Assembly: GCA_020628165.1 (NCBI GenBank)
Contig: JAHDFM010000016.1
Span: 18,542-82,541 of the forward strand
Source: Bdellovibrionales bacterium
GTDB taxonomy: Bacteria > Bdellovibrionota > Bdellovibrionia > Bdellovibrionales > UBA1609
DNA length: 64,000 bases
Reading direction: 5' to 3'
Position 1 is the first letter of the stretch. Each line of letters opens with the position of its first letter. Positions 25,451 through 61,422 of the stretch are shown here, piece after piece. The position numbers and the translations under genes are program-made. The notes below the pieces were generated by a model, which saw only the letters and a program-made list of their open reading frames with translations, was not told the origin of the DNA and did not search any database.

Positions 25451-25560
25451 ATTGACTCCATATAATTTCTCCAGAAAGCATTACAACACAGTGCTCATCC
25501 ATATTGCCTTATTTACCTAATAAAACTATAATTAATTATAACTTTAACATCTTACATGTC

Positions 25561-35339: not shown

Positions 35340-35340
35340 A

Positions 35341-38161: not shown

Positions 38162-38166
38162 AGAAG

Positions 38167-39337: not shown

Positions 39338-39350
39338 AATTACCCTATCA

Positions 39351-40625
39351 TCAAAAGCCAATACTCTTTGCAGCTTGAGGTATGTAATCCCCGATAAATA
39401 TATTCCTATGTGTATCAATTTTTTGGATGAATTTTTTTAATCTAGGTTTTAAATGGCTTTTGTCTTCCAAATTGGCTAATAAGTTGATTATTCCTGTTAT
39501 CTCTGCCAATAGGTTTATGTCTCTTTGACAGCTAATTTTGTGTTTAAGAATGTTGTAAACTCTTTCAAGTTCTATGATGACTTTCTCTGCTTCATGCTTT
39601 GTTAAAACGTCTGGCTGTTGAAACTCGGGATTAAATACCTGGAATAAGTGAAAACCAAATTTTTTGTATGGCCACATCCATTGAAAATAATCAGATAACC
39701 CCCAGACACTGTAAACACTTATACTATGCTGGAAATATAGATTTAAGTTTGAGTTGGCTGAAGTTCGTACTTTTTCCACATTTTTCAGCCAAGACTTCCA
39801 TTTAGTTGGATACCTTATATACTCATTTTGCTTGCCAACCCCATCAACACTGAAGTTTATTTCAACCTCTTTGAATAAGGGGAGCATATCTATAAATTTT
39901 TTTGGAACAACAATACCATTAGTTGTTACCTGAAGCCGAATGGACTTGGAGCGTCCTGAGCTTATGATGGTTTCTAGATACTTCATCATATGGCGATTAA
40001 TTAGTGGTTCACCACCAGTAAATTTCAAGTTTGTAATATTGCAAGATAAGTTTTTAAGTTCCTCCCAGAAGCTAGGGTCTTCAGCCCAATTATAATTTAT
40101 ATTAAAAAGCTCAGGGCTAACTTTTCCAGTTAAACCAAAGTCAAATGGGGTTTTCTTATCCCAACCTATTTGTTTCCACTCATTCAGTACCCGACTTGAT
40201 GAACTAGGATCACAAAAGAGGCAAGAGGCATTGCAATTATTGCCAAGCTTTAAGTCTAAACTGGTTGGTTGATCTAAGGCTTTAGTAAATTGCCCCAACT
40301 CTTTTATAGCTCTTTCTCGATAACTTTCAGAGCCATTTTTTTCATATTTATAGCAAGCTTCACACTCTTTTATTGGGGTGCCCTCTTGATGATTTTTTCT
40401 TACCCAATTCATATAGGGGCTATTCCAATAATCCATAACACTGTGACTTGATGCTTCATATGAGTATTTGCCAGAAAAGTCTGATATTGGTCCATAGGCT
40501 TCAGACGATGAGCAGCAAAGTTTAAATTGTCCAGTTGGTGTTGTTGTAAGTTGTGCAAATGGGTAAGGACAGCTTCTTTTATTTATAAAATGCTTTGAGG
40601 GTTCACTTTTCAACTTGAAACTCAT
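39351..40625 (-). CDS. N-terminal twitch radical SAM protein
   Basis: N-term CPYPFAQLTTTPTGQFKLCCSSS...ECEACYKYE; LGNNCNASCLFCDPSSSSR; LKFTGGEPLI; start MSFKL at 40625. Confidence 0.88.
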   Translation of the reverse strand: MSFKLKSEPSKHFINKRSCPYPFAQLTTTPTGQFKLCCSSSEAYGPISDFSGKYSYEASSHSVMDYWNSPYMNWVRKNHQEGTPIKECEACYKYEKNGSESYRERAIKELGQFTKALDQPTSLDLKLGNNCNASCLFCDPSSSSRVLNEWKQIGWDKKTPFDFGLTGKVSPELFNINYNWAEDPSFWEELKNLSCNITNLKFTGGEPLINRHMMKYLETIISSGRSKSIRLQVTTNGIVVPKKFIDMLPLFKEVEINFSVDGVGKQNEYIRYPTKWKSWLKNVEKVRTSANSNLNLYFQHSISVYSVWGLSDYFQWMWPYKKFGFHLFQVFNPEFQQPDVLTKHEAEKVIIELERVYNILKHKISCQRDINLLAEITGIINLLANLEDKSHLKPRLKKFIQKIDTHRNIFIGDYIPQAAKSIGF

Positions 40626-40648
40626 TTTTAATTTAGTAATTAAGAATA

Positions 40649-41209
40649 ATGTTCTATCACAGAAAACTTTCGAAGTATAAATACAAACTTGATTCATTTA
40701 AGGAGATTCTTGCGTTTGCTTCGTCTTCTGCTGCTCAATGGAAAAAGGGTATAGATCAAAATGGTGTAGTATGGAATATTGAAGAGCTTCCCTTGGAATA
40801 TTCAAGTTTTTCTGTACTCAAAGAAATATATGAAGCACTAAACCTCAATTTTAAACGTCCTTCGTTTTTTTTGAGCAGGGTGCCATTATCTGGACTTGGC
40901 AATCATGTAGACCATAGAAAATGGGGAAATTTAGGGTTTCCATTAACATCGGGGTTTGGGTTATCCAAAATTAACTTTCATGATCCATTTAATCAAATTG
41001 TCGAAGAATTGGTTATAAACGAACCAATTAATGGGCAATATATACCATTTATAATTAACACAAGAATGACACACTCCGTTGTTTACGAGCAGCAGCCAGT
41101 GCGCGAAAGAATTACTCTTATGCATGATCTTTTTGAATGGCCAGGACATATTTTTGAAAAAGTTGATAATGGGACACTCTTTAAAAGTGATCCTTCGATT
41201 TTTATTTAA
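40649..41209 (+). CDS. 2OG-Fe(II)/Asp-Asn beta-hydroxylase-like protein
   Basis: LSRVPLSGLGNHVDHRKWGNLGFPLTSGFG...PFIINTRMTHSVVYEQQPVRERITLMHDL. Confidence 0.6.
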   Translation: MFYHRKLSKYKYKLDSFKEILAFASSSAAQWKKGIDQNGVVWNIEELPLEYSSFSVLKEIYEALNLNFKRPSFFLSRVPLSGLGNHVDHRKWGNLGFPLTSGFGLSKINFHDPFNQIVEELVINEPINGQYIPFIINTRMTHSVVYEQQPVRERITLMHDLFEWPGHIFEKVDNGTLFKSDPSIFI

Positions 41210-43046: not shown

Positions 43047-43047
43047 T

Positions 43048-43794: not shown

Positions 43795-44428
43795 GTTTAT
43801 AGCAATGCAGAGACTAGCAATGATGGGCGATTGGCTTAAATTAAATAGCTTCGATAATAAGACAATGATTAAAGAGATAAGTCGCTATAAAAGTGAATGG
43901 AAAAGGTACAATCCAAGAAAACCAAACAATAGGTTTGGACTTAGTATAACAAGTTTAGATGGTGACCTAAGTGGAAAACCAGATCTTGATAGTTTGTATG
44001 AATTTAATAGAGAAAATGGAACAAATTATGATAATCAGTCTTTTAAAAAAACAACCATAGTCTATCAAAACTCTTTATCTTTAAGGTCTGCCATTAAGCC
44101 ATACATGCCTTGGTTGGGGCGGTCTCATTTTATAAAGCTAAATGCTGGCGGCTATTTCCCTGAGCATTATGACATACATAAAACGAAATTTGATAAAGAT
44201 GAAATTAGATTAATTGGTTTTGTTAACAATACATCGTCTAATCATTTCAAATTCTGTTATGAAGATAAGTTGATAACAAATTATTCTGATGGTGATTTGT
44301 TTTATTTTAATGCTAATAAGAGGCACTCTGTTTTTGCTACCGACAATGAAGTTATATTGCTGGTTGTTACTTTGAAGTTCGATGAAAATCTTTTTGAAAC
44401 TATAATCAACAATTATGATTGTAAATAA
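43784..44428 (+). CDS. 2OG-Fe(II)/Asp-Asn beta-hydroxylase-like protein
   Basis: FIKLNAGGYFPEHYDIHKTKFDKDEIRLIGFVNN...DGDLFYFNANKRHSVFATDNEVILLVVTLKF. Confidence 0.55.
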   Translation: MNNKFIAMQRLAMMGDWLKLNSFDNKTMIKEISRYKSEWKRYNPRKPNNRFGLSITSLDGDLSGKPDLDSLYEFNRENGTNYDNQSFKKTTIVYQNSLSLRSAIKPYMPWLGRSHFIKLNAGGYFPEHYDIHKTKFDKDEIRLIGFVNNTSSNHFKFCYEDKLITNYSDGDLFYFNANKRHSVFATDNEVILLVVTLKFDENLFETIINNYDCK

Positions 44429-45872: not shown

Positions 45873-47234
45873 ATGGGGATTAATTACAAAACTTCGGCTT
45901 CTTTTCACTGTGTCAACGATTTTAATTATCAAACACGAGGGGCCAACTATTTTGCATATAATATAGCTGAATACTGGGTTCTTGAATTTAGGCATTTGGG
46001 TATCAGGTCAGATGCTCACTCTAGTTGGCATGAGGCATTTAAAAGCGCACTGGATTGTGGAAGTCAGTGGGCTATTTTTTATCGACCAGGAAATCAATTT
46101 TATTTCAAATCAGAATTTTTGAACCACCTTTCGGATTACCTTTTAGAGGACACAATGTGTTTAGGGCATATTCTCGATAAAGAGAATGAGTACCTTGAGC
46201 TCCATCCACAATGTTTTGTATTGAATATGGACCTATACAAGAAGATAGGTCGACCAAATTATGAAAATCATCGTGTCATTGATAATTTACAAAAATATCA
46301 AAGAAGCACGGAGAATTTTCATGATAATTACACTCCTATGTGGATCAAAAAAGATTCCGGTCAAATTTCAAGTTATACTACTTTTGGTAGTGAGATTATT
46401 TCACGGGCCTTGTGTGAAGGGTATAACGTTGTCCCATTCAATGAGACATTAAGAAATGCAAAGATTTTTTTGTATGATGGTGATGACTTTTTAGATACTT
46501 TTTCTAAATTTAAGAAAATAAGTGATCATGCAGCTAGAGGTTACTATGGAGTGAATACAGAACGATTATTGAAAGACCCATTTCCGGATAAAAAATTAGA
46601 GACTCTTTATATACCCCCAAGTGGGCTTTTACCATTTAAGCTTTTCAGAGAAAAAGGTTATTTGAGTCGAAAAAAAGGAGATCATGTTACCTCGAGATTA
46701 ACGTTATATGATATTTCTGAACCAGCACTCGATATTTACAGAAATTTGCTGTCAAACTGGAGTGGTGAAAATTACCCAGATTATTTACAGCACATCAACA
46801 AAAATTATAGTATTAAAGAAAAAGGGCGACTTGATAAGGAGTGGCACAGTTTCTTGAACTTATTTGGTGGCGAATCGAATTGGTTAAACTGGTTTCATGA
46901 CTTCAAATATAATTGCGAGTTTAAATTTAGAGATATTAATATACTAAGTCGAGATGTCTATAATCGTCTATTCTTAACTAAGCCAGAGGTTGGAGTTAAC
47001 ATTATGTGGTTGAGTAATATTTTTCATTACATGCCAACTCATCTCTACTATTCTAACGAACAATTGATGAATCACCTTAATAAATTTATGAAATTCCTAA
47101 AGCTCAATCACCCAGATTGGGTTGTGCGCTATAATACTACAGAAAAAGGAACTGCTGATGTTGGTGAGTATTATGATAAAGTGACTAGTTACAAAGACCT
47201 AACACCAGCAAAATTCCCATGGAGTTCAAACTGA
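45873..47234 (+). CDS. Protein of unknown function (453 aa), glycosyltransferase-like N-half suspected
   Basis: Long intact ORF in a same-strand block; SFHCVNDFNYQTRGANYFAYNIAEYW...CLGHILDKENEYLELHPQCFVLNMDLYKKIGRP; no confident family. Confidence 0.7.
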   Translation: MGINYKTSASFHCVNDFNYQTRGANYFAYNIAEYWVLEFRHLGIRSDAHSSWHEAFKSALDCGSQWAIFYRPGNQFYFKSEFLNHLSDYLLEDTMCLGHILDKENEYLELHPQCFVLNMDLYKKIGRPNYENHRVIDNLQKYQRSTENFHDNYTPMWIKKDSGQISSYTTFGSEIISRALCEGYNVVPFNETLRNAKIFLYDGDDFLDTFSKFKKISDHAARGYYGVNTERLLKDPFPDKKLETLYIPPSGLLPFKLFREKGYLSRKKGDHVTSRLTLYDISEPALDIYRNLLSNWSGENYPDYLQHINKNYSIKEKGRLDKEWHSFLNLFGGESNWLNWFHDFKYNCEFKFRDINILSRDVYNRLFLTKPEVGVNIMWLSNIFHYMPTHLYYSNEQLMNHLNKFMKFLKLNHPDWVVRYNTTEKGTADVGEYYDKVTSYKDLTPAKFPWSSN

Positions 47235-47235
47235 C

Positions 47236-47961
47236 ATGCAGCTAGAACACCAGAATTATCTTTTAAAAAAATACGAAGCTCACCTTCAGCAATTAATAAG
47301 TGATAAGACTAAAAGGTTTATGAAAGCAAATTGGTTTTCTGACAATAGCATCAATGATCAGTCTGTTAGTAAAAAAGATATAAAAGCGATACGAGATCGA
47401 AGCTCTATCAAATTAAAAATCAATTTTAATGAAAATAAAATGCTTTCAGAGGCAAAAAAAATACAACATTTATTTGTGAATCATCGAAAAGACCCTAGTT
47501 ATGGTTGGAAATCAATTTGTCTTCACGGAATGTCTTTTAAGCAAACAGAAAACTTTAAAGAGTATGGCTACGAAGAGCGGCCTGTAGAAAAGTTTCATTG
47601 GACCGAGATTTCTACATTGTGTCCTTACACCACTTATTTTTTTAAAAATCTTTTTCCATACTCACATTATTTTAGAGTAAGATATATGATGCTCGAGCCA
47701 GGCGGGTTTATATCACCGCACAATGACCTTGGTGGAGAGCGAGGATTTGCAGCTATTAATATGAGCTTAAACCAGCCTGATGGCTGTTTTATGATTATGG
47801 AAAATTTTGGCATAGTCCCGTGGCAGCCAGGAGAAGCACGCTTATTAGATATTGGTTTAAATCATTCTGTTGTGAATTTTTCGGACGAAAATAGGTATCA
47901 TATCATTGTCCACGGGTATGCAGATGAGACCAAGAAACAAGACTACTCGGCGGTTTTATAA
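47236..47961 (+). CDS. 2OG-Fe(II)/Asp-Asn beta-hydroxylase-like protein
   Basis: LEPGGFISPHNDLGGERGFAAINMSLNQPDGCFMIMENFGIVPWQPGEARLLDIGLNHSVVNFSDENRYHIIVHG (HxD...H...R). Confidence 0.78.
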   Translation: MQLEHQNYLLKKYEAHLQQLISDKTKRFMKANWFSDNSINDQSVSKKDIKAIRDRSSIKLKINFNENKMLSEAKKIQHLFVNHRKDPSYGWKSICLHGMSFKQTENFKEYGYEERPVEKFHWTEISTLCPYTTYFFKNLFPYSHYFRVRYMMLEPGGFISPHNDLGGERGFAAINMSLNQPDGCFMIMENFGIVPWQPGEARLLDIGLNHSVVNFSDENRYHIIVHGYADETKKQDYSAVL

Positions 47962-47965
47962 AAAA

Positions 47966-50536
47966 ATGGACTTTAGATCACAATCTTCCTCACTTTGTAT
48001 TCACCCATTTGCTAGCTTAACAGTGCATGCAACTGGTCACGTAACTCGATGTATGATGAGTGAAGAAAGCATGGGAAAGGTGAGTGGTGCTGAGGGGAGC
48101 CTACCCCACCAGCTTTTTCAAAATGAAAAAATGTCGTCTTTAAGAAAAAAAATGCTCACCTCACAGTGGGATGGAAATTGTCGGAGTTGTATACGTAAAG
48201 AAAATGATGGAATCACTTCCAAGCGACAACATTGGCAAAATATCAATGCTACGAAAGATCTGTGGAATAAGTCAGATATTTTTAACCCAGAGGGTAGTGA
48301 ACATGTTTATTTTTTAAATATTGCTTTTAATAATTATTGTAATTTTAAGTGTAGGATGTGCAGCTCTGCTTATAGCAGTAAATGGGTTCAAGATGAAAAA
48401 CTCTTGAAGCAAAAAGGTCTGAGAGGTGGCTCGGGGACCTGGTCGGATAAAAAAGCTGTTTTACTTGGTGAATCTATGCGTTCACTCGATGATAAGGTGA
48501 TAGAAAATATAGTTTCCACACTAAGGCATGTGAGAAAGATAGATGTTGTTGGTGGTGAACCCTTTTTTAGTAAGGATTTTTTATACTTTAATAGGCTAAT
48601 GAATGAAAAGAAATACGGTTCATCTGCTCGCATAGCGGTCACCACTAATGGGAGTATTTTTAATCAAGACTATTTGCAAAGCTTACTTTTATATAAAGAA
48701 GTAGAAATAAACATATCTGTTGATGGTATTAATAAATTATTTAATTACATTCGTGCAGGCAAAGCAATCACATGGGAAGAGTTCAATCAAAATATCGATC
48801 GAATTATAGCCTTTTGTGAATATGTTAATTCAAATTATGCCGGCAAAAAATGGAAGGTGAACTTAAATTCTGCCTTTCAAATATACAACGCTCTAGATTT
48901 TTATAATTTTATTGACTGGGTTGAAGAAAAATTTTCTTGGAAAAATAAAAAAATTGAGTTCAGTAGTAAATTGCGTAACAGCTTTGAGAAACGTGTTTTG
49001 ATGACTCCGTCTCATTTAAGTGTCAAGGCTGCGCCTACTGGTATCTTAAAAAAATCATTATCTATAATAAAGTATACGCTTCAAGAAAAACCTTATCTTG
49101 CTGACATAAGAGAGTTTGATTATATTAAGGATATAGTTAAAGTCTTAGAGAGATCTTTAAGACTTAATAATGATAAAGAAAAGAAATGGCATATATTTAA
49201 TGCATACACAAATGCCTTAGATGATATTAGAAATCAAAGTTATGAAGATTCACTCGAAAGTTCATTAGTCGATGAAATTAATAATTACAAGCTGAGCTCT
49301 ATAAAAGATAAAAATGAAAAGTTTCTTGAAACTAAAACTAAATGGGGTGCTGAATTTTGTCCAATGCCATGGGAGGCATTAAGTATCACTGCCCAAGGAA
49401 AAGTAAAGCCTTGCTGTCAAATGAGAGGTAATTTTGAATCTCTTCATGATTCAGATATATCTAACATTTATAACTCTAAAACGATTTCTAAGGTTCGTAA
49501 AGAATTTATCATTGAAAATAAACCGGAAGCTTGCTCTTCGTGCTGGGAGAGAGAGGAACAAATTGGTCACTCTCGTAGAAAATGGTTTTATGGAAAATTT
49601 AAAGATAATATAAAAAATGGAATTGAATATTCTGATGTTATTTTAAAAAAGCCACAATGGTTGCAGATGGATATTAACTTGTCCAACAGATGTAATTTAA
49701 AATGCAGAATGTGTGGCGTGTGGGGCTCACATAAATGGATTGAAGATGAAAAAAGGTTAGCACAAGATGGTAATCCATTTAAGCGAGAGATGAACCCTAG
49801 CCATTTAGCTCTAAAGGAATTAACACTTGAAAAGTTAGAGTCATTACTGCCTCATATGCAGAAAGTAAAAAGAATTGATTTTAAAGGCGGAGAGCCTATG
49901 CTCGCCAAAAATCACATTCCTTTTTTAGAAATGTTAATTGATAGAAAAATTAATGAAAACGTCATTCTGCACTACACGACAAATGGCACGGTTATTAATC
50001 AAAAAATTCTGAAAGTACTGAGTCAATTTAAGCAAGTAGAGCTTGTATTTTCTATTGAGGGCACTGACCCTTTGTATACTTACATTCGAGGTGATGGACA
50101 GTACACAACGAAGGATCTTATCAAAAACCTAACAGTTTATGACCAATTAGATAACATCAAAATTATGACAAATGTAAGTATGCAAGCTTATAATTTACCG
50201 AATTTGTTAGAGCTTTATAATTTCTTACACTCTTTGCCTCTTAAGAACTATTCACCCAAGAAGTCTTTTCAATGCATCGTCAATTCTCCAAAATATTTAA
50301 GTCCTTTTATTTGGCCTCTTGAAATTAGAAACAAGTATGCACAGCAACTAGAGAGAATTGGTGAGTTTAAAACCTTTGCCCAGCAGTTGCAGACAAAGCC
50401 ATTTGAACCAAAGCACTACAGCCAGTTTTTACAATTTACTAAAAAATTAGACGATATCAGATCTGAGAATTACTTTTCTATTTATCCAGAGTTGCTCACC
50501 TATGATGACAAACATTTTGAAGGCCTATCATTATGA
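47966..50536 (+). CDS. Tandem double N-terminal-twitch radical SAM protein
   Basis: Module 1: LCIHPFASLTVHATGHVTRCMMS ... NNYCNFKCRMCSSA; module 2: FCPMPWEALSITAQGKVKPCCQMRG ... SNRCNLKCRMCGVWGSHKW; ATG at 47966. Confidence 0.9.
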   Translation: MDFRSQSSSLCIHPFASLTVHATGHVTRCMMSEESMGKVSGAEGSLPHQLFQNEKMSSLRKKMLTSQWDGNCRSCIRKENDGITSKRQHWQNINATKDLWNKSDIFNPEGSEHVYFLNIAFNNYCNFKCRMCSSAYSSKWVQDEKLLKQKGLRGGSGTWSDKKAVLLGESMRSLDDKVIENIVSTLRHVRKIDVVGGEPFFSKDFLYFNRLMNEKKYGSSARIAVTTNGSIFNQDYLQSLLLYKEVEINISVDGINKLFNYIRAGKAITWEEFNQNIDRIIAFCEYVNSNYAGKKWKVNLNSAFQIYNALDFYNFIDWVEEKFSWKNKKIEFSSKLRNSFEKRVLMTPSHLSVKAAPTGILKKSLSIIKYTLQEKPYLADIREFDYIKDIVKVLERSLRLNNDKEKKWHIFNAYTNALDDIRNQSYEDSLESSLVDEINNYKLSSIKDKNEKFLETKTKWGAEFCPMPWEALSITAQGKVKPCCQMRGNFESLHDSDISNIYNSKTISKVRKEFIIENKPEACSSCWEREEQIGHSRRKWFYGKFKDNIKNGIEYSDVILKKPQWLQMDINLSNRCNLKCRMCGVWGSHKWIEDEKRLAQDGNPFKREMNPSHLALKELTLEKLESLLPHMQKVKRIDFKGGEPMLAKNHIPFLEMLIDRKINENVILHYTTNGTVINQKILKVLSQFKQVELVFSIEGTDPLYTYIRGDGQYTTKDLIKNLTVYDQLDNIKIMTNVSMQAYNLPNLLELYNFLHSLPLKNYSPKKSFQCIVNSPKYLSPFIWPLEIRNKYAQQLERIGEFKTFAQQLQTKPFEPKHYSQFLQFTKKLDDIRSENYFSIYPELLTYDDKHFEGLSL

Positions 50537-51237
50537 TTATCGGGGTTGAAGATAATTATGCACCTAAGGACAAAGTTTTTAGAGTAGAGTGGAACCTAGG
50601 TAAAAGGTGTAACTTTGACTGTTCTTACTGTTCGCCTTCAATACATGATAAAAAATCAGAGCATATTGATCTTGAGTTATTTAAGAAAACAAGTCGAAAA
50701 TTGGTGGAACACTCAAAGCAATTAAATAAAAAAATTAAGGTGAGCTTAACTGGGGGAGAACCATATCTACATCCAAAGTTCATTGATATGATTACTTATC
50801 TCAAGAAAATAGGTTTTTATCGGGTGTCTGTAACTAGCAATGCGAGTGTTCCTTTATCCCTTTACTCCAAAAGCTTGCAATATGTTGATTATTTGATTTT
50901 ATCTTTACATTTCGAGTTCATCAAAGTGGATAAGATTGTGGAAAAGATTATTAAAATTAAAAAAGCGTGTACAAATGGTCAAGGTTTTCATGTTCATCTA
51001 ATGGCACTGCCTGGAAAAACACATTATTTAGAAAGGATTAAACTGCAGCTTGCTCAAAACAATATTTCATATGTTGTTAGAAGAATTAGACCACAATTTG
51101 ACAGAGAAGGTTTATACAATATGCCTTTTACAAGTGGCCAAGAGGGCGATCATAAGCCTAATTATGATCTCATTAAGAAAAAAAATATGACATATTACAG
51201 TCGTGCTGACTTAAACTATTTAGGGGTTATTAAGTGA
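50533..51237 (+). CDS. Radical SAM core protein lacking its own auxiliary-cluster domain
   Basis: WNLGKRCNFDCSYCSPSIHD; KVSLTGGEPYLHPKF; 234 aa; stop overlaps next start (GTGA). Confidence 0.88.
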   Translation: MIIGVEDNYAPKDKVFRVEWNLGKRCNFDCSYCSPSIHDKKSEHIDLELFKKTSRKLVEHSKQLNKKIKVSLTGGEPYLHPKFIDMITYLKKIGFYRVSVTSNASVPLSLYSKSLQYVDYLILSLHFEFIKVDKIVEKIIKIKKACTNGQGFHVHLMALPGKTHYLERIKLQLAQNNISYVVRRIRPQFDREGLYNMPFTSGQEGDHKPNYDLIKKKNMTYYSRADLNYLGVIK

Positions 51238-51578
51238 GTTCATCTTCGTTTAAAAATATAATTATACATGAAGAAATAGATGGGCAAGTTAAGTCCTACG
51301 AAAGCAATGTAAATGATTTATTAATGCAAGAAAAAAATCAATTCACAGGTTTTGAATGTTGGGCAGGGGTTCAAAATATTACGATAGACAATAAGGGTGA
51401 TGTTTACAGGGCTATTTGTAAGCAGGGAAACAAGCTAGGTAATATAGAAACAGGTTTTACCTTGCCTGGTGAAACAATCATTTGCCAAAAGAAGTTTTGC
51501 AATTGTGCTGCAGACATTCAACTGACCAAACAAAAAGTCGGGGCACCCAAAGTAACCCGCACTGTGACAGGCAATTAA
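51234..51578 (+). CDS. Stand-alone SPASM/twitch-like auxiliary Fe-S domain protein
   Basis: FTGFECWAGVQNITIDNKGDVYRAICKQGNKLGNIETGFTLPGETIICQKKFCNCAADI; Cys spacing typical of rSAM C-terminal auxiliary domains. Confidence 0.65.
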   Translation: MSSSSFKNIIIHEEIDGQVKSYESNVNDLLMQEKNQFTGFECWAGVQNITIDNKGDVYRAICKQGNKLGNIETGFTLPGETIICQKKFCNCAADIQLTKQKVGAPKVTRTVTGN

Positions 51579-52837
51579 TAGATTTCTAAGATTTGATTCA
51601 TCTCAGGGAAAACCTTAGCAAAGCTTTCCTTGCGATAAAGATCTAACTTTTTGATAGTGTTTTTTCTAGTTGTATCTATTTTTTCAGACCACAAATCTTT
51701 TGAATCAATAAACTCTATTACTTTTTGATTCATATCTAGCTGTGAGATTTGCCCTTGCACATGACTCTTTTGTACTGGAGTTAAGGACCGAACTGAGTTG
51801 ATGCCCGTTTTTACAAAATGATTGAAAGGGTAGAAATTCCATTTTTGCTCAGCAAAAGTCTCGACGATTTCTTGTAAGTACAAAATATTATAGATACTTA
51901 CAGTTGCGTCCATGACTGTTTTATGTTGTCGATGTTTTGAAGCTAATTCGTGGAAGTAATTAATGTTTTCTTTGGTGTTTTCCCATTTGGCATTACGTCT
52001 TTGGTACTCAAAACGATCGCCGATATCGTCAATGCTCAAGCTCCATTGAATCTTTGCAAAACGATTTAAAATTTCAAGGTGCTCACCTTTGAGCTTTTGA
52101 GTGCCATTTGTGTTGTACCAAATTGTGAGTTCACCGTTGTTGAGGCTGCGTGAAAGCTCGTCTAAGAGCTCAAAGTGTTCTTTGACCATCAAGGGTTCTC
52201 CACCCATGATATGAATCGTCTTAAGATCTTTCAGGCCTTCAATATTTTTATAGTATTTAAGATCATTAATCCATAAACAATCTTGATTGAATTGAAATTG
52301 TTTGCTTTCAGAATATTTGTCTGTTTCATTTTGTTTTTGCAATTGAAAGTCATCTTTTGCCCAAGAACTGCTATTAATGGTTCCGCAGATACGACACTTT
52401 AAATTGCACTTGTTGCCGAGCTTTATTTCAAGCCAGGTGAGATCAGCTTTTATTGGGACATCGTTCTTTTTTTGAGCCATATACTCATAGGTCTGAGCAA
52501 TGACACTCTTGCTAGTAGAAAAATTTATTCGTGGCGAGAATTTAGAGGTGTCTTTCCAACAGCGGTGGCAGTTTTTAAACTGTTGATTTTTTTTAAAAGC
52601 AGTGATCATTTCTTGTCGACTAGGATGATTGATCAATTCATTAATACTATCGTAGTTTTTAATATTAACATCAGATCCATCAGGCTCTTTGAGAGCTTGT
52701 CCTTGGCAGCAGGGCAATAGGTTACCATCAGCTTCTATAGCAAGGTGAGCAAAAGGCAGAGTACAAAAGTTATTGCCTTCTTCTAATAGCCAATCAATGA
52801 TTTCATTTTTTTGTTGAGTGTTGATTGAATTAGGCAT
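51575..52837 (-). CDS. N-terminal twitch radical SAM protein
   Basis: FCTLPFAHLAIEADGNLLPCCQG ... GNKCNLKCRICGTINSSSW; start MPNSIN at 52837. Confidence 0.9.
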   Translation of the reverse strand: MPNSINTQQKNEIIDWLLEEGNNFCTLPFAHLAIEADGNLLPCCQGQALKEPDGSDVNIKNYDSINELINHPSRQEMITAFKKNQQFKNCHRCWKDTSKFSPRINFSTSKSVIAQTYEYMAQKKNDVPIKADLTWLEIKLGNKCNLKCRICGTINSSSWAKDDFQLQKQNETDKYSESKQFQFNQDCLWINDLKYYKNIEGLKDLKTIHIMGGEPLMVKEHFELLDELSRSLNNGELTIWYNTNGTQKLKGEHLEILNRFAKIQWSLSIDDIGDRFEYQRRNAKWENTKENINYFHELASKHRQHKTVMDATVSIYNILYLQEIVETFAEQKWNFYPFNHFVKTGINSVRSLTPVQKSHVQGQISQLDMNQKVIEFIDSKDLWSEKIDTTRKNTIKKLDLYRKESFAKVFPEMNQILEIY

Positions 52838-54080
52838 CGAGCAATTGGAAGAGTTCAGGGTTAATATGTTTAAGGTCTTCTCCTCGTCTGGCATCGAGGT
52901 TAAAAGTATACTTTTTAAGTTCATTCAATTTATGAGACCAATCATCTTTCAGCATATACTGAATCACTTTATTTAATGAATGTTGAGAAATGTCAGCATT
53001 TGGATCTTTTGCATTTAACCAAGTTAGCATAGATTCTTTAACGCTTAACTTAAAATCTATTGGTAAGTTTTTTATGTTGAGATACTCAGGGTGATTTAAA
53101 ATATTTAAAAAAGGCTCTGGGTTAATGGATTTAAAGCCACTTAAATAATCGTAAATGTCAGTCAAATAATTGATATTATAAACTTGAACTGTTGAGTGTA
53201 TGTTAACGAATATATGTTTATGATCTGTCGCTAAACGGTCAAATTTATTTAAAATGTCTTTGGTAACGTTCCAATCAGAGGGGTTGCGGATATAATCATT
53301 CACCTTGCCGACACCATCGATGCTTACATTGAGTGTGACTCGCTTAAAATGATGCCAAAGTGGTGGTAGTTTTTCTGGTAAGGTAGTCGCGTTGGTGTTG
53401 TATTTTAATTTAATCTTAGACGCTTTTCCTGCTTCGACAAGGAACTTTAATAATTTTAAATGTTGATGAATTAAAAAGGGCTCTCCTCCAGTAAAGTAAA
53501 TTTCTTCTAGACTGAGGCTTAACTGTGACAAGTGATCCCATGTTGAATCATCTTTAAACCACTCAATACGATTGAGATAATCAATGTCTTGGATTTGTAG
53601 AGCTGTGCCCTGCACTTGATTCCAGTCTTCTATCCATTTTTTACTGGAGTAAGGGTTGCACATACGGCATTTTAAGTTACAAAGATTGCCAAGTCTCAAA
53701 TCTATATAAAGAGGTTTGAACTCTTTTAATGACCCATCGTCACTAGTGTTTTCAATTTGAGTAGTAATATGCTTTTGAAATTTATTGTTCCAGCCAGTTC
53801 TTGGGCTCTGACCACTAGCGCTCTCTTCACGGTAACAGCGAGTACAAATATCAATACGTTCGCCTTTTAACATTTTGCTTCGAATGTCATTAATCATATT
53901 AGAATTTTGTAATTTTAAAATCGACTTATCTTTGTTGACATGAAGTTTTCTATTTTCATGAGTAAGAATATTTTTACCTGGAGTTGAACTGCAACAGAGT
54001 CGAAGGTAACCAGTGGTGTTGGTAGCTATCTGTACCCACGGTAGTATGCAAAATGTCTTAGAAATCTCATGTTTTGCCAT
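52830..54080 (-). CDS. N-terminal twitch radical SAM protein
   Basis: FCILPWVQIATNTTGYLRLCCSS ... GNLCNLKCRMCNPYSSKKW. Confidence 0.92.
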   Translation of the reverse strand: MAKHEISKTFCILPWVQIATNTTGYLRLCCSSTPGKNILTHENRKLHVNKDKSILKLQNSNMINDIRSKMLKGERIDICTRCYREESASGQSPRTGWNNKFQKHITTQIENTSDDGSLKEFKPLYIDLRLGNLCNLKCRMCNPYSSKKWIEDWNQVQGTALQIQDIDYLNRIEWFKDDSTWDHLSQLSLSLEEIYFTGGEPFLIHQHLKLLKFLVEAGKASKIKLKYNTNATTLPEKLPPLWHHFKRVTLNVSIDGVGKVNDYIRNPSDWNVTKDILNKFDRLATDHKHIFVNIHSTVQVYNINYLTDIYDYLSGFKSINPEPFLNILNHPEYLNIKNLPIDFKLSVKESMLTWLNAKDPNADISQHSLNKVIQYMLKDDWSHKLNELKKYTFNLDARRGEDLKHINPELFQLLDA

Positions 54081-54287
54081 TATTTGTTTTTACCAATAAT
54101 AGCTTGTGAAGGTCAATATTTTGAGTTGATATGAGCTCTGACAAGGCGTTGTGGCGACAACTGTTAATTAAATGATATCAAGTGTTTAAATATGAGCAAA
54201 TAAAATCTACGAATGAATAGCACCTTATGTTTACTAAAGAATGTAGTATAAGGAAAGCTCACTCATTTGAAATAAAACACACTAGGC

Positions 54288-55553
54288 TCAGTTACTGGAA
54301 TAAGGTTTTAGTAATTTATGCAACCTGGGAAAGCAGTCTGGAAACTTTAATTTCCTGTTCTGATCAACTTTGTGAGTGTATTCAAAAAACTGTTGTAAAA
54401 GCTTTGGATCGAAAGACTCCATATGTTGCGAGACATATTTTTTCATCGACTCAATCTGCTGTTGAATCTGTTCAGAAGAGCTTTCAAAATTTTCAAGGTG
54501 AGAATATATTTCTTGCTTCAAAGGCTTTGGCAAAATTTTAATGTCTAAATATTTTGGTGAGGAAAGTGTTCGAACACTTCCAAGATGGCTATATTTTTGC
54601 CAAATGTCAGTAACAGAAAAGGCATTGTATATTTGCCAAGTTATAGAAAAGTTAAGTCGGACATTATCTAAGCCTGAGACAACATTTAAATTCTCAGAAA
54701 TTTTGTCCCACTGACTAGGGTAGCGAATATAATTATTTTGTAGTTCAATGGAGTCTATGGAGGCCCTTAAGATGACTTTTTTAAAAGGTTTCCATATTTT
54801 AAGTATTTTTTCGTCAAGGATAGTTAAATTAGTGTCATATTCCAAGGTGATATTTTTTGCACAGTCTTTTTCGATAAGAAGTTGTAAAAATTTAAAATGT
54901 TGTGGGATAAGTAAGGGCTCTCCTCCAACGAGGTAGATTTGTTTGATGTTGGTGAGATGCTCATTCAATTGTTCCCAAATAGAGTCTTGTTCATACCAGT
55001 CGTAGTCACCGATAAGATCGAGATTTTTACTTTTGTCAAAAAATATTTTTTCTCCGGTGTCATAAAAATAATCTTGATCAAAGATTTTATTATAGTCCTT
55101 GTACCACTTACTTGAACTTGCTGGGTGGCACATGATGCACTTTAAATTGCACTTGTTGCCGAAGCGGAGGTCAAGATAACTAATTTTAATTTCAGAGAGT
55201 TTTCCCTCTGCACTAGTAGTTTGTATAAAGGTGTTGGACTCTATTTCTCTACGGTACATTTTATTAGTTGTTATGCGTTTTGACTTTAAGCCAATGGCTT
55301 CTTTATCCCAACAGGTTTTACAAAGAGGGTTTTGAACTCCATTCATTAGATCTTTACGAAGTTGGCAGATCTTTTGGGCATTAAAAGCTTCATTAATATT
55401 AGCATTTTTAGCGTTAAAAATTTGCCCTTCTGGATTTCGCAAAACACCTTTGTCTGAATCTTCAGAGTTTGACATTAAACAACAACCGCGGATATTGCCG
55501 TTGGGTTTTGTCGATAGTTGCGTCCAAGGAACTGCACAAAAAGTGTCCTTCAT
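54288..55553 (-). CDS. N-terminal twitch radical SAM protein
   Basis: FCAVPWTQLSTKPNGNIRGCCLM ... GNKCNLKCIMCHPASSSKW. Confidence 0.92.
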   Translation of the reverse strand: MKDTFCAVPWTQLSTKPNGNIRGCCLMSNSEDSDKGVLRNPEGQIFNAKNANINEAFNAQKICQLRKDLMNGVQNPLCKTCWDKEAIGLKSKRITTNKMYRREIESNTFIQTTSAEGKLSEIKISYLDLRFGNKCNLKCIMCHPASSSKWYKDYNKIFDQDYFYDTGEKIFFDKSKNLDLIGDYDWYEQDSIWEQLNEHLTNIKQIYLVGGEPLLIPQHFKFLQLLIEKDCAKNITLEYDTNLTILDEKILKIWKPFKKVILRASIDSIELQNNYIRYPSQWDKISENLNVVSGLDNVRLNFSITWQIYNAFSVTDIWQKYSHLGSVRTLSSPKYLDIKILPKPLKQEIYSHLENFESSSEQIQQQIESMKKYVSQHMESFDPKLLQQFFEYTHKVDQNRKLKFPDCFPRLHKLLKPYSSN

Positions 55554-56875
55554 GGCAAGACTCCTAAGGAAGCTAATGGAGCGCTACAATCACTGCACTT
55601 AGATTTAACTTTTTCATAAAAATTAAAATGATTCTTGTCGGGAGTGAGTCGTATAAACTCATGAAATTTGCTTTCCAAATGTGACAGGTCAGAGTCATCA
55701 TTCATCCACAATTTAAAATCATTGATGTGTCTTTCTAGTTGGATGTTTGCTTTTGCTGATAAGTTGTTATCTTTAAAATGTGAGAGCTCTAATTCTTTGG
55801 CAAACTGGGTTCTCATTGTCTTAGGCCAAACACGTGCATCGAGAAAATCTGGAGAGACTACTCGCGATGTGTGCCATGGAATTTGTAAATCAAAAACAAC
55901 ATAATCGATGATTTCTTTTATAAAAGGGGCATTGAGAGCACTGATCGTTGTGGTGCATTTTAAATTTTTCACGTTAGCGATACCTTTCACTAATTTTATG
56001 TTATTTTTTATCTTCAGACTGTCACTGCCCTTGCGAATATAATCATTCAATTCAGGGTAACCATCTAGAGAAATAGTCAAATCGATTTGTTTAAATTGAC
56101 TCCACAACTCTAAAATAGAGAATTTTTCAAAAGAGAGTACGGTTAAATTAGTTGAGTATCTCAAAGTTGTTTCTTTGGGATTACCATATTTTACAATGGC
56201 TTCTAAGAAATTGTAGTGAAGTGGGTCAATTAAAGGTTCTCCACCGGCAAAATCTACTAGCTTTAAATTGGCTGCGATCAACTTTATCTCTTTATTGAAG
56301 AGAGTGTTTTCGGAAAATAAATCAAGAAAACCTTGATCATTTTGTTTGGTGATGACCTTATCAATCCAGCTTTGGTAACCATGGTCATAAAGGTGTTTAA
56401 ATGTGCTCCAGTCCCTGTTCCAACGATTTGAAGCTGCAGGTGAGCACATTGTGCATTTTAAATTGCAACGATTAGAAAGTTTAAGCTCTATGGTTGGTAA
56501 CTCTAAAGCCTCTTTTGCTAGGTATTGTTTAACATTGCTTTGATAGTCTTTAGTTCGGGCGCAGTTTTGACCGTGCCTGAGACTTGTCATACCTTTATCT
56601 TCTATGTCCCAACACTTTCTACAAGCATCAGGTCTTTGACCCTGCAATAATTTTGTGCGGATGTTGTCCATCTTGTCGCTATTCCAAACTTGCAGCAAGC
56701 TGTTGTTTTCAATGAGATCAATTTTCTTAGAGCGACAACAGAGCCTGACTTCTCCAGTGGTGGTTGTTGAAAGATGTGAAAAAGGTAAAATACAAAAGGT
56801 TTTAGGATCTGCCGAGATTGCAAGATCCTGATTTAATTGATGAATAACTTTGTTATTTAATTCCTGTATTGACAC
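55550..56875 (-). CDS. N-terminal twitch radical SAM protein
   Basis: FCILPFSHLSTTTTGEVRLCCRS ... SNRCNLKCTMCSPAASNRW; ATGA overlap with next gene. Confidence 0.92.
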   Translation of the reverse strand: MSIQELNNKVIHQLNQDLAISADPKTFCILPFSHLSTTTTGEVRLCCRSKKIDLIENNSLLQVWNSDKMDNIRTKLLQGQRPDACRKCWDIEDKGMTSLRHGQNCARTKDYQSNVKQYLAKEALELPTIELKLSNRCNLKCTMCSPAASNRWNRDWSTFKHLYDHGYQSWIDKVITKQNDQGFLDLFSENTLFNKEIKLIAANLKLVDFAGGEPLIDPLHYNFLEAIVKYGNPKETTLRYSTNLTVLSFEKFSILELWSQFKQIDLTISLDGYPELNDYIRKGSDSLKIKNNIKLVKGIANVKNLKCTTTISALNAPFIKEIIDYVVFDLQIPWHTSRVVSPDFLDARVWPKTMRTQFAKELELSHFKDNNLSAKANIQLERHINDFKLWMNDDSDLSHLESKFHEFIRLTPDKNHFNFYEKVKSKCSDCSAPLASLGVLP

Positions 56876-56978: not shown

Positions 56979-58472
56979 TTATTGATAGGTCATGATATAG
57001 GCGCTCGTATTTTTTTGATAGGATGGAATAGTAAATTGCTCAACCAAAGACTTATCTTTTACAAGAGTCTGCACTCCTTTTTGTGGGCAGTTGACACTAT
57101 CATAGGCATGACAACGGCGAGACATCTTACTATTAAAGTAAACCAAATACAAAGTGTCGAATTCTACAGTTTTTTTGTTTTTAATTATTTTTTTACAATT
57201 ATTGGCATTCTTAAAAATCATTTTATTGGCTATCGGGTCATTCTTTGCTCCCCAAAAGTAATTCCAAAGCTTTTCTCCTTGGGAAAGATCTTCTGGGAAA
57301 CAAATTAGGGACGCACTCAAGTTCTTATTTTCAAAATATTTTGCTAGGGATTGTATAGGCTCGTAATAAATATTACTGACTTGATTTTTTACTTTATAAA
57401 AGTGAACAAAGTAAGATGTCGAAAAAAATAGGATTGCAAGTGTGATGCCTTTAAAGCTTTTAAATCTTGCTAAATAATATTGAGTATTTAAGAGGTAAAA
57501 AAGAGGAAGAAGCCCAATGAAGTAAGTTATTTTAATTTCACGAGCACCCGTAAGGCTCATTATAAAAAATAATAAAAAGGTCGAGTAGAGGTAATACTTA
57601 AAAAATAAGTTAAGTTTATCATTTGTCTTGTTTTTAAGAATTTTTATTGTTGAGTAAAAAATGAGAGCCGCAAAAATGAAGTAGACTGCTGAAATGGTGA
57701 AATGAGATTCGAGCATATTGCTCCAACCAAGGCTAAATAACTCAAGCAGTGAATTTAAAAATATGTGGGGACTATTTTCATAAAATCCAGATTGACCCAG
57801 TCGGACATAAAATCGAAACAAAACAATCATTATGCCTTTGACTATAAGGGTAGTTAAAAAAGGGAAGTAAAAGATTCTATATTTTTTGTGAATGTCCTTA
57901 CGGAGCAAAAATAAAACTAAACAACATGGCAACGCGTTTGTATAAAAGGAGGCTGTGGCAGCAAAGGCGACTGTTGCTAAAAGAGCATTTGCCACTATGC
58001 TTTTATCAAATTTTTGGTAAATGAGGGTAACTACAAATATCAGTAGTAAGTTGAACATATAGGGTGAGATAGATGTTATATAATAAAAGAGGAGTTCATT
58101 TGTAAACAAAAGGGCTAGGCTTGAGAGAATAACAAAAAAAGGAAATTGATATTTAAGATAATAGAAAGCTAATAGTGCAAGAATAAAAAAGCTAAACAAT
58201 GAAATATACCTTAGCTGATAAAGGTGACTCTCATCACTGCTTTTCAACAAGCGAATAAGAAGAGGGTAGAGAGGGCCTCTATCAGCTATGACAGAGTCAT
58301 ATTTTAAAATATTAAAATAATCTAAAATGGGAAGGTTTGCCTCGTACATTTCGTGCGTTTCAGCGCGAGAAATCTCATGTTGCTGTAAATTTATTTGATG
58401 GAGTTGTATGGCATTGAAGCTGTAGATTAATAAAATTACTAATACTATGAAATAAAAAGATTTTTTCGCCAT
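56979..58472 (-). CDS. Polytopic membrane protein, GT-C/ArnT-like glycosyltransferase candidate
   Basis: Many TM segments; DSVIADRGPLYPLLIRLL luminal-loop motif; SLTGAREIKITYFIGLLPLFYLL. Confidence 0.6.
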   Translation of the reverse strand: MAKKSFYFIVLVILLIYSFNAIQLHQINLQQHEISRAETHEMYEANLPILDYFNILKYDSVIADRGPLYPLLIRLLKSSDESHLYQLRYISLFSFFILALLAFYYLKYQFPFFVILSSLALLFTNELLFYYITSISPYMFNLLLIFVVTLIYQKFDKSIVANALLATVAFAATASFYTNALPCCLVLFLLRKDIHKKYRIFYFPFLTTLIVKGIMIVLFRFYVRLGQSGFYENSPHIFLNSLLELFSLGWSNMLESHFTISAVYFIFAALIFYSTIKILKNKTNDKLNLFFKYYLYSTFLLFFIMSLTGAREIKITYFIGLLPLFYLLNTQYYLARFKSFKGITLAILFFSTSYFVHFYKVKNQVSNIYYEPIQSLAKYFENKNLSASLICFPEDLSQGEKLWNYFWGAKNDPIANKMIFKNANNCKKIIKNKKTVEFDTLYLVYFNSKMSRRCHAYDSVNCPQKGVQTLVKDKSLVEQFTIPSYQKNTSAYIMTYQ

Positions 58473-58474
58473 AT

Positions 58475-59908
58475 TTACTCATTTAAACTATAAAGTTGAA
58501 AATATATTTTTTGATTCTTATATTTTTTGGCAAGAATCTCTGTGCGTTTAAGGTCATACTTCATCATATTAGTATTGAATGAGGGCTTTAAACAATAGCT
58601 TTTATCAGACTCTGTGCAGTTGGTGTTTGAAGAATATGGTTGGTTCCAGGTGATAATTATTGGGCGTTCTCCCAAATTACTTTGAGTGCATTTGTAGTGT
58701 TCGATGTAATTATTTTGATCATTAAAAAACAAGTGAATTCTATTGAGATGATGTATACGACTTGGGTATTGAGGTAGACACACGGAAGTGGGTTTAAAGT
58801 TGTATGTTCTGAGAGATTGATTCATTGAAAGCAGAGGGGTCATTTGTAGTGATGAGAAATGACTTATGAATGGGTGGCAAATTAATACAAGTAGGGTTGC
58901 TGTAGAGATGAATTTGATAGGTAAAGATTTAAAGTTGAGAAGTAATTTAGCGACATGAATATTGAAAAGCACTAAGAGTGGAAAGTAGTATCTTGTTTCA
59001 ATTTCTTCAGCACCGGTTAAGCTCATTAAAGTAAATGTTGATAAAAAAATAAAATTATAAATAATAAAAAATCTGGCTTTTATATCAGTTGATTTTAGGT
59101 AATAAATGACGATTTTTAGTATGAAAATAATAATACATAATGCAGCAAGAAGTTTAAATGGAGGTTGTATGAAACTGAGTGAAAAGCCGTAAAAATCAAG
59201 TACTTTTAAGACTTTCTCATTAAAACCAAGTTGTAAAAAATCTGAGTAATGCATTCTATCTACAAAACGATAACGGACGATCATAAGACCTTTGATGATT
59301 GAGTAGACAAAAAGAGGAATGTTCCAGCCTAACAGTTGTGTAGCTGTAACCTTTTTATATTTTATAAGGAATAAGAATCCTAAGCAGACTGGCAAAATCG
59401 CGCTGAAGAAAGACATTACGGATAAAAGAGCGCAGGTAGATAAAATTGCAAGAGATTTTTTAGAGGTCTTAAATTCAAAGATTTTGTATATGAAAACCAA
59501 TGTGATCATAGTATTAAAAGAATAAATTGAGATGAGATGAGTCTTGTGAAAAAAATCAATATTCAAAAATGTCAATAAGACAGTGAAAAGAGCAATTTGT
59601 AGGTTCTCTTTTTTTATAAGCAAATAAATCAGTAATAAGTTAAAGCTTATAAAAAAAAGTCTAAAAACATAGATATTATCTTGATTAATAAATTTAAAAA
59701 GGTTCATTAACAGCCACTCTATAGGGCCCCTGTCTGGAGCTACAAGCCACTGGTAAGAGGTAAAATTGACATCAAAGTATGGTATTAATGAAAGGTTCGA
59801 CTGAAATAAACGAAAAGTTTCATTCCAGCCAACTTCAAAAATGAAGGCATATAAAATGGCACAGATTGTATACGTGAAGATGATGAAGTTTTTTAATATT
59901 GAATTCAA
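58475..59908 (-). CDS. Polytopic membrane protein, GT-C-like, paralogue of neighbours
   Basis: APDRGPIEWLLMNLFKFI; IIKGLMIVRYRFVDRMHYSDF; SLTGAEEIETRYYFPLLVLF. Confidence 0.6.
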   Translation of the reverse strand: MNSILKNFIIFTYTICAILYAFIFEVGWNETFRLFQSNLSLIPYFDVNFTSYQWLVAPDRGPIEWLLMNLFKFINQDNIYVFRLFFISFNLLLIYLLIKKENLQIALFTVLLTFLNIDFFHKTHLISIYSFNTMITLVFIYKIFEFKTSKKSLAILSTCALLSVMSFFSAILPVCLGFLFLIKYKKVTATQLLGWNIPLFVYSIIKGLMIVRYRFVDRMHYSDFLQLGFNEKVLKVLDFYGFSLSFIQPPFKLLAALCIIIFILKIVIYYLKSTDIKARFFIIYNFIFLSTFTLMSLTGAEEIETRYYFPLLVLFNIHVAKLLLNFKSLPIKFISTATLLVLICHPFISHFSSLQMTPLLSMNQSLRTYNFKPTSVCLPQYPSRIHHLNRIHLFFNDQNNYIEHYKCTQSNLGERPIIITWNQPYSSNTNCTESDKSYCLKPSFNTNMMKYDLKRTEILAKKYKNQKIYFQLYSLNE

Positions 59909-59910
59909 AT

Positions 59911-61422
59911 TTAAAAGGCTCCAGTCTTACTAATTTTGTAAATATCAAATGAGAAATTATTTAGGTGACGTTTTTTAGAGTACACTAACTCATGAGAGTG
60001 ATTTGTTTCACAGTTTTTTAGATCTAAAATTTTTTGACAGACATTGTCCATTTTAAAATCATACTTGAGCGTGAGTAAGTAGAAAAAATCTTTCTCGAAC
60101 ACTTTTTTTGAGTCGCAAATAAAATTTGTTTTATTTAAGTGATCATTCCTTGATTCAAAATTTTTGTGTGTATGTAAATACAAAATGTATTCGGCAAAGT
60201 GGCCTTCAGGGAAAAAGCAAATACGATCTTCTGATTTGAGCTCAAGTTGGTTGAAAAGCGCTTTGTGCATAGATATCAACGGTTCTCGAAGCATTTGATT
60301 TAAGTTAATGTTAATATTGTGTTGCTTTGTATAAGCTATGGAAAGTAAAACTGAGAGGCTTAATATAACCTTTTTAATAGATTGAATCCGAAAAATATTT
60401 TGAGATAAGTAAAAATAAAGTAGAGGGAGCACACCAAAGAAGTAGCGTGTGACAATTTCACGATAACTCAATAAATTGAGAGTAAAATAAATAACTACAA
60501 ATAAGAGTAAATATATTTTGAGAAACTTAGTAAGTTCGCTGTCATCTTTTTGTAGGGCTAATTTACCTACCAAGTAAAGAAGGAAAAATAAAGCAATTAG
60601 TGATCCTATGATATAAAGAGCAGACATTTCGGAAGACCCAAAAATGATTTCACCAGGTGGTAAATAAATGTCAAAATGCTGCAGAAACTTTTTTATATTA
60701 AATATAACCCCCTCATCATAAAAGCGTGTGCTTTTTTTTCTGTAAAACAAACGAAAATAAATGATCATTGGAGTTTTTAGGAGGAGATAGAGAAGTAGGG
60801 GAGAGTAATAGATATAATCGCGTCTTATCTTTAGGTCATTTTTCTTGTACAGAAGATATAAGCTGATAAGAATTGGTAATGCTGTCGAAAAATGAATTAA
60901 AACACACATTAAACAAACAATGGCATGTATAAATTTGTGCAAAAGAGATTTATTAAAATTAAAGTGAATCAAATATAACAAAGAAAGAGCAAACATCGCT
61001 GTTGCATATGGGGAGACGATCGTAAATAAATCAAATATTTGATAGTGGAACGCAAATAATAAACAGGTAGTTAGAGCAATGATTGGCTTACTTAACTTGA
61101 GGAATAAGACGTAGAAAATAAGAAGGCTAAAAATAAAGAAAAAAATACTTAGATACCGGAGTTGGAAAAACTGTTCACCAACAAAAGGCACAAAAAATTT
61201 AGTAAGATTGTGATAGCCAGGACCATGATCAAAATTATTTTTATGATCAGAAAACGGATTTAATGTGTCATAATAAGGGAGGTTAGTTTGATCGAGAAGC
61301 AAAGGCTCTTGAAAAGTCATTTCAAAGGTTTGACTATGCTGAATGCTGATATAGGATAAAATACAAAGAGCTATGATGAAGGCGAGATGTATTAAATTAT
61401 TTAAAGCATTAGAACTTTGCAT
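59911..61422 (-). CDS. Polytopic membrane protein, GT-C-like, paralogue of neighbours
   Basis: NNFDHGPGYHNLTKFF; LLKTPMIIYFRLFYRKKSTRFYDEG; NLLSYREIVTRYFFGVLPLLYFYL. Confidence 0.6.
   Translation of the reverse strand: MQSSNALNNLIHLAFIIALCILSYISIQHSQTFEMTFQEPLLLDQTNLPYYDTLNPFSDHKNNFDHGPGYHNLTKFFVPFVGEQFFQLRYLSIFFFIFSLLIFYVLFLKLSKPIIALTTCLLFAFHYQIFDLFTIVSPYATAMFALSLLYLIHFNFNKSLLHKFIHAIVCLMCVLIHFSTALPILISLYLLYKKNDLKIRRDYIYYSPLLLYLLLKTPMIIYFRLFYRKKSTRFYDEGVIFNIKKFLQHFDIYLPPGEIIFGSSEMSALYIIGSLIALFFLLYLVGKLALQKDDSELTKFLKIYLLLFVVIYFTLNLLSYREIVTRYFFGVLPLLYFYLSQNIFRIQSIKKVILSLSVLLSIAYTKQHNININLNQMLREPLISMHKALFNQLELKSEDRICFFPEGHFAEYILYLHTHKNFESRNDHLNKTNFICDSKKVFEKDFFYLLTLKYDFKMDNVCQKILDLKNCETNHSHELVYSKKRHLNNFSFDIYKISKTGAF

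Follow-up and report, generated by a model that had tools for sequence, protein, structure and literature searches.

We analysed a 64,000-nucleotide stretch of the genome of a Bdellovibrionales bacterium (GTDB lineage Bdellovibrionota; Bdellovibrionia; Bdellovibrionales; UBA1609; assembly GCA_020628165.1, contig JAHDFM010000016.1, forward-strand positions 18,542 to 82,541), henceforth the window, which carries four consecutive minus-strand genes, A to D, for radical S-adenosylmethionine (SAM) enzymes with an N-terminal twitch domain (N-twitch; see Table 1). In a profile search all four exceeded the curated whole-protein cut-off of 170 bits for the family NF033640 (N_Twi_rSAM) and matched it over nearly its full length, with E-values of 8e-75 to 7e-120; given these scores, a chance motif match could be ruled out. 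An earlier note, made from the letters of this DNA, had described four open reading frames (ORFs) with common motifs at this place and on this strand, and both motifs were found in each: FCxxP[WF]...G....CC...CxxC[WY], followed by CNLKCxxC. In the numbering of B, seven cysteines are invariant across the copies in the window, namely C11, C29, C79 and C82, which form the N-terminal four-cysteine twitch, and C134, C138 and C141, which form the CxxxCxxC radical SAM core, i.e., the architecture of NF033640. From the radical SAM sequence motifs and the match to PF04055, cleavage of SAM at a [4Fe-4S] cluster is predicted.

The same note had spoken of a tandem run with overlapping start and stop codons in two adjacent pairs. 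Both overlaps are real: the start codon of A (ATG, 52837-52835) overlaps the stop codon of B (TAA, 52832-52830), and C and D are joined by an ATGA at 55553-55550. The genes are indeed consecutive and on one strand, but with 207 bp between B and C the run is better described as two overlapping pairs, and the start of A had to be corrected, as the listed ORF begins at 52924 and the internal ATG at 52837 is the likelier start. Nor is the run self-contained. The conserved unit is larger and also includes F (a fused double N-twitch enzyme), a radical SAM/SPASM gene pair, a hydroxylase-like gene and a glycosyltransferase (GT)/methyltransferase-like gene, the unlettered ones being named here by their first position in the window. 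The genome as a whole (a 3.19-Mb assembly) encodes 11 NF033640 domains above the cut-off.

Table 1 N-twitch radical SAM genes of the window and the other genes of the cassette
Gene	Predicted product	Position in window	Strand	Basis
A	N-twitch radical SAM enzyme	51575..52837	-	NF033640, 252 bits
B	N-twitch radical SAM enzyme	52830..54080	-	NF033640, 401 bits
C	N-twitch radical SAM enzyme	54288..55553	-	NF033640, 362 bits
D	N-twitch radical SAM enzyme	55550..56875	-	NF033640, 302 bits
F	Two fused N-twitch radical SAM domains (F1, F2) in one protein	47906..50536 (likely start ATG 47966)	+	Two NF033640 stretches, 505 bits in total
50533	Radical SAM core protein without an auxiliary-cluster domain of its own	50533..51237	+	PF04055
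51234	Free-standing SPASM-like partner of 50533	51234..51578	+	Weak match to STM4011 SPASM region
47236	Asp/Asn beta-hydroxylase-like 2-oxoglutarate (2OG) oxygenase	47236..47961	+	PF05118, 50.7 bits
45873	Two-domain protein, tentatively GT-A-like N-terminus and methyltransferase-like C-terminus	45873..47234	+	Weak fold matches
E	Further N-twitch radical SAM enzyme, in a separate left-hand block	39351..40697	-	NF033640, 297 bits

The four copies belong to separate orthologue groups

The pairwise identity between A, B, C and D is 24-32%; near-identical copies were looked for and not found. In both a FastTree phylogeny of 223 domains and a more careful IQ-TREE phylogeny of 73, the four fell into four different clades, each with relatives of its own. 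Together, the low identity and the separate clades rule out a recent tandem amplification, and support the proposal of the earlier note that the genes are specialised copies rather than recent duplicates. With its members in different clades, the run would have been assembled from already diverged lineages, or else duplicated long before the groups spread. In the careful tree the clades of A (support 100/99), B (100/97), D (100/99) and both halves of F (F1, 99/96; F2, 100/99) mix bacterial and phage sequences, with bootstrap values of 99-100, and C pairs only with sequences from two other Bdellovibrionia genomes (G051 and G058, see below).

Specialisation is also suggested at the level of residues. 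We found 24 alignment columns that were fixed differently between groups, against a mean of 0.007 with shuffled labels (a shuffle that ignores relatedness), and some of these residues adjoin the GGE, TN and SID motifs. Enzymes adapted to different substrates should show such a pattern, although some degree of shared fixation would be found in any set of clades. Bacterial runs of two to five N-twitch genes likewise consisted mostly of different clades in a recurrent order (e.g., 11 g3-g1 pairs, or g2-g2-g0-g0-g5 arrays). Copies of clades g5, g7 and g11 stood last in 11 of 14 runs (permutation P 0.0007), which is suggestive only, as the test was picked post hoc and the runs are related.

Much of the gene set recurs in Bdellovibrionia and in large phages

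G051 and G058 are metagenome-assembled genomes (MAGs) of Bdellovibrionia from another family of the same order, and in each of them orthologues of A, B, C, D, F1 and F2 lie in one region. Best matches were at 32-33% identity for A, 44% for B, 57-58% for C, 49-50% for D, 41% for F1 and 54-55% for F2. F1, F2, the radical SAM gene, the SPASM gene, D and C are contiguous there, A- and B-type copies lie no more than about 20 kb away, and F takes the form of two overlapping genes instead of a fusion. The partners are conserved as well, at 52% (50533), 65-67% (51234) and 54% (47236). Across 142 genomes of the order, C at more than 40% identity and the SPASM partner at 67% were each found in only these two. 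The G051 region (L041-L042, C1:742001-782000) holds thirteen N-twitch genes within about 30 kb, alongside several proteins of the 45873 family, two Asp/Asn-hydroxylase-like genes, an amidinotransferase and an aminotransferase-like gene.

Relatives are also abundant in viral sequences. A scan of IMG/VR returned at least 581 N-twitch relatives, and the matches listed include as many as seven N-twitch genes within 17 kb. The viral origin of such records is supported by the T4-type capsid protein Gp23, which was found in 8 of 30 IMG/VR records tested and in none of 14 cellular controls; the terminase family phrog_2 proved weak as viral evidence, since it also matched 11 of the 14 controls. Two contigs, L159 (172 kb, with Gp23 and a terminase match containing stop codons) and L174 (235 kb, with Gp23), have a single-strand operon of overlapping or abutting genes. 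Starting from A, it runs through the fused F, the radical SAM gene, its SPASM partner and D to the 45873-family gene, the Asp/Asn hydroxylase-like gene and, last, B. In three phages, L159, L174 and L211, A, B, D and F all have orthologues. Those of A share 42%, 38% and 36% identity, respectively, with the window copy; D is 35-42% identical to its counterparts in L153, L154, L159, L174 and L211; B is 37-41% identical to phage copies, and 28 viral loci have it as their best match in the window, at 35% identity or more; and F, fused in L159 and L174 as in the window, matches at 46% and 34-35%. For the partners, identities to phage proteins are 42-44% (50533), 57-61% (51234, in L159, L174, L211 and L167) and 36-40% (47236), and the 45873 family was found in 16 viral and 5 bacterial loci. 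Each copy represents an ancient, separate orthologue group, and A, B, D and F co-occur with their partners across bacteria and phages. Orthologue groups that never occur together, an outcome that the earlier note had named as refuting, were not what we found.

In 74 non-redundant viral loci chosen for their N-twitch match, we further counted radical SAM proteins of cluster 0 in 64, cluster 1 (the 50533 family) in 60, methyltransferase-like proteins in 53 and GT-like proteins in 41; these counts describe co-occurrence and carry no test. Among isolated phages, only 35 of 50,697 records matched B, at identities of up to 29%, and a cluster-1 query returned no match among them. One isolate, Vibrio phage K566, has five distant N-twitch-like genes, two of them adjacent. 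Separately, five contigs assigned to MAGs of Pelagibacter, Betaproteobacteria, Rickettsiales or Legionellales (L106, L112, L115, L099 and L082) may be misbinned phage contigs; their arrays resemble viral ones, and L106 encodes a fibre-like protein family known from viral loci.

The radical SAM/SPASM pair deserves comment, as the two domains form a single chain in most other relatives. We considered whether the split reflects a frameshift or an assembly error and ruled this out: it recurs in G051, G058 and phages (window 50533-51578; L041:12294-13399; L159:3543-4579; L211:11659-14039), and because other genes intervene between the two in L211 and L167, they must be two real proteins.

Genomic setting of the cassette

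Three congeners of the window genome lack close copies, and this sporadic distribution points to horizontal transfer of the cassette. The G+C content of the window falls from about 0.32-0.41 on the left to 0.29-0.35 past about 22 kb, and the site downstream of an mltG-like gene (22457-23479) differs in every congener (L239, L241 and L242). In two of them, G002 and G003, other N-twitch genes follow closely on this mltG-like gene, in G003 together with a transposase-like ORF, so that the site looks like a variable hotspot. A prophage was considered and rejected: the ORFs of the window start with housekeeping genes, and no phage structural gene or tRNA was recognised among its features in a search that was not exhaustive. 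Upstream of D on the same strand lie three tandem large membrane proteins (56979-61422), one with a weak PMT_2 match, which are not conserved in G051 and G058.

A separate conserved block occupies 31409-45713 (and 25504-28115). It comprises homocitrate/isopropylmalate synthase-like, aminotransferase and methyltransferase genes, both aconitase-type subunits, a KedN5-like B12 radical SAM gene, several 2OG-like proteins, a redoxin, the N-twitch gene E, an MmgE/PrpD-like gene and, judged by eye, an ATP-grasp-like gene. Most of these recur in the loci L110 and L117, where the counterpart of E is 61-63% identical. In the 164.8-kb viral contig L170, a B copy lies beside relatives (36-46%) of 25504, 27375, 36242, 38167, 38771 and 40649, including both B12 radical SAM genes.

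Structural comparisons and the nature of the substrate

The AlphaFold2 model of B is of high confidence (predicted local distance difference test, pLDDT, 92.3; predicted template modelling score, pTM, 0.91). Solved structures match it in part, with template modelling (TM) scores by query length of at most 0.39 (SkfB, viperin, CteB, anSME and BlsE), and predicted proteins of uncultured Caudovirales match it over its full length (TM 0.7-0.8). For the N-terminal domain alone, the top PDB match was the auxiliary-cluster domain of BtrN, with cysteines aligned, at a marginal E-value of 0.044 (0.0014 with the full profile). BtrN oxidises an aminocyclitol, and the resemblance would therefore lend modest support to sugar-like substrates. 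The 45873 model (pLDDT 77.9) gave weak PDB fold matches, the best at an E-value of 6e-3, to methyltransferases and COLGALT1; nothing useful came from searches of PHROG, Pfam and PDB with the GT-like and methyltransferase-like partners. Among the neighbours of N-twitch arrays we found GT2, NodU carbamoyltransferase, nucleotide-sugar epimerases, SGNH/GDSL proteins and UDP-glucose dehydrogenase. No convincing small precursor ORF was present in the three intergenic gaps of the window that we examined, although a precursor elsewhere is possible, and the packed core operon of L159 and L174 leaves no room for a small precursor gene.

A proposed tailoring cassette and its alternatives

We propose that these genes make up a tailoring cassette that is exchanged horizontally and whose copies each take a different step on a common scaffold, for which a surface glycan is the likeliest candidate, and we put the probability of this explanation as a whole at roughly 45%. 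Its parts differ in strength. A cassette with specialised steps is highly probable, and about half of that confidence extends to a glycan as its scaffold. Serial modification of a single scaffold, one of the two options raised in the earlier note, is plausible given the conserved co-occurrence and the tight phage operon, and the best reading of the distribution is that the cassette has been exchanged between chromosomal islands of Bdellovibrionota and large T4-like phages. Each copy would be an active radical enzyme that abstracts hydrogen at a different position or residue and catalyses a step of its own, be it a dehydrogenation, an epimerisation or a cross-link, so that the enzymes of the array would decorate a single large scaffold in series. 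That scaffold may be a glycan or a glycoconjugate; in bacteria it would belong to the cell surface, and in phages to the virion or the surface of the infected host. The surface glycan is the least certain element; it is suggested by the array neighbours, the BtrN-like domain and the lack of a linked precursor peptide.

Several observations weigh against this proposal. In the window, A to D are read from one strand and F with its neighbours from the other, and C had no clear phage orthologue among the viral loci compared or in the careful tree. In whole-protein searches BtrN is outranked by SkfB, CteB and anSME, which act on peptides, and by viperin and BlsE, which act on nucleotides; 45873 matches glycosyltransferase folds only weakly; and for the conserved GT-like family (cluster 2) neither Pfam nor PDB gave a match.

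A first alternative is that the cassette modifies a peptide or protein. The substrate would be either a ribosomally synthesised and post-translationally modified peptide (RiPP) whose precursor gene lies elsewhere, or a structural protein of the phage, e.g., a tail fibre. Radical SAM cross-links or epimerisation would then be combined with side-chain hydroxylation by the Asp/Asn-hydroxylase-like oxygenase. The profile and fold matches to SkfB, CteB, PapB-type and anSME maturases and the presence of that oxygenase fit such a role, as do the position of a radical SAM module after the baseplate genes in phage CP220 and the placement of pelagimyophage radical SAM cassettes in a host recognition cluster with tail fibres (PMC7029224). 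The gaps of the window and the packed phage operon offer no convincing precursor, and no RiPP recognition or transporter gene was recognised. We regard a peptide or protein substrate as fairly unlikely, if the most serious competitor.

Next comes a small-molecule natural product, also unlikely, in which the left-hand block (2-oxo-acid elongation, aminotransferase, B12 radical SAM, ATP-grasp-like) would make an unusual amino acid for the N-twitch enzymes to tailor. The retention of this block with its own N-twitch gene E in L110 and L117, and its relatives beside the B copy in L170, speak for such a pathway. The two blocks are on different contigs in G051, however, most phages with B or D lack the left-hand block within the stretch seen, and no nonribosomal peptide synthetase, polyketide synthase or other assembly enzyme was recognised.

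Hypermodification of nucleic acids (phage DNA or tRNA) is improbable. The abundance of the cassette in large T4-like phages, the QueC-like and thymidylate synthase genes near several loci and the place of viperin among the closest folds would suit it, but the same gene sets occur in bacterial chromosomal islands, and related genomes differ greatly in how many radical SAM genes they have and of which types, unlike what a fixed base modification would require. Neutral accumulation, in which radical SAM genes cluster through transfer and duplication with no common pathway, is disfavoured and very improbable: it accommodates the sporadic distribution and the low-G+C island, yet not the intact active-site cysteines of all copies, the co-occurring groups conserved across bacteria and phages, the overlapping genes or the recurrent clade order.

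Within the tailoring-cassette proposal, a bolder form is tentative and in our view rather less likely than not to hold in full: large T4-like phages and Bdellovibrionota may have in common a mobile assembly line in which 5-13 radical SAM enzymes, each specialised relative to the others and among them the fused double enzyme and the split radical SAM/SPASM pair, build an undescribed class of heavily radical-modified polymer that alters host or predator surfaces. A surface polymer as the product would matter for phage competition and for the way in which Bdellovibrio-like predators and their prey recognise each other.

Comparison with known systems

Genes A to D, E and both halves of F match NF033640 over nearly the full model, and the description of that family names no substrate, tandem arrays or partners. 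We found no known substrate for N-twitch radical SAM enzymes, abundant as they are in environmental viral contigs, and no paper on N-twitch arrays or on a cassette common to phages and bacterial islands in the literature covered, which mostly excluded subscription journals. The likeness to BtrN, the dehydrogenase of the butirosin pathway (PDB 4m7s/4m7t), would be limited to the auxiliary-cluster domain: it is the C-terminal domain of BtrN that aligns, cysteines included, with the N-terminal domain here, so that the domain order is reversed, and the match is marginal. Pelagimyophages, which are marine T4-like phages, carry variable radical SAM cassettes with glycosyltransferases near the tail fibres in a host recognition cluster (PMC7029224); the part of that report available to us leaves families and gene order unnamed, and the cassettes are likened to ours by description only.

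Another precedent is provided by the Campylobacter phages CP220 and CPt10, for which a 2010 paper (PMC2853527) described 11 and 12 radical SAM proteins and an interchangeable module that combines five such genes with an amidinotransferase. Like L159 and L174 these phages are T4-like with clustered radical SAM genes, and CP220 also has nucleotide-sugar transferase-like genes. Its module genes belong to clusters 0, 1 and 19, of which clusters 0 and 1, together with the amidinotransferase family, are common to the present loci. In the window itself, 50533 belongs to cluster 1 and 29737 is cluster-0-like, and no amidinotransferase was seen, whereas the G051 region has one. Unlike the cassette described here, the CP220 module has no N-twitch enzyme and was not described as common with bacterial chromosomes; conversely, that module is carried by phages, whereas the window has no recognised phage structural gene and its homologous cassettes are found in phages. 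Phage modules with multiple radical SAM genes were thus already known, and what appears new against the literature covered is the N-twitch family with a conserved gene set common to phages and bacterial islands, in which separate orthologue groups with defined partners can be identified. The puzzle of radical SAM-rich phages posed in 2010 thereby becomes testable, since the set defines the genes that go together, the partner needed to complete the split enzyme and the copies to be expressed jointly.

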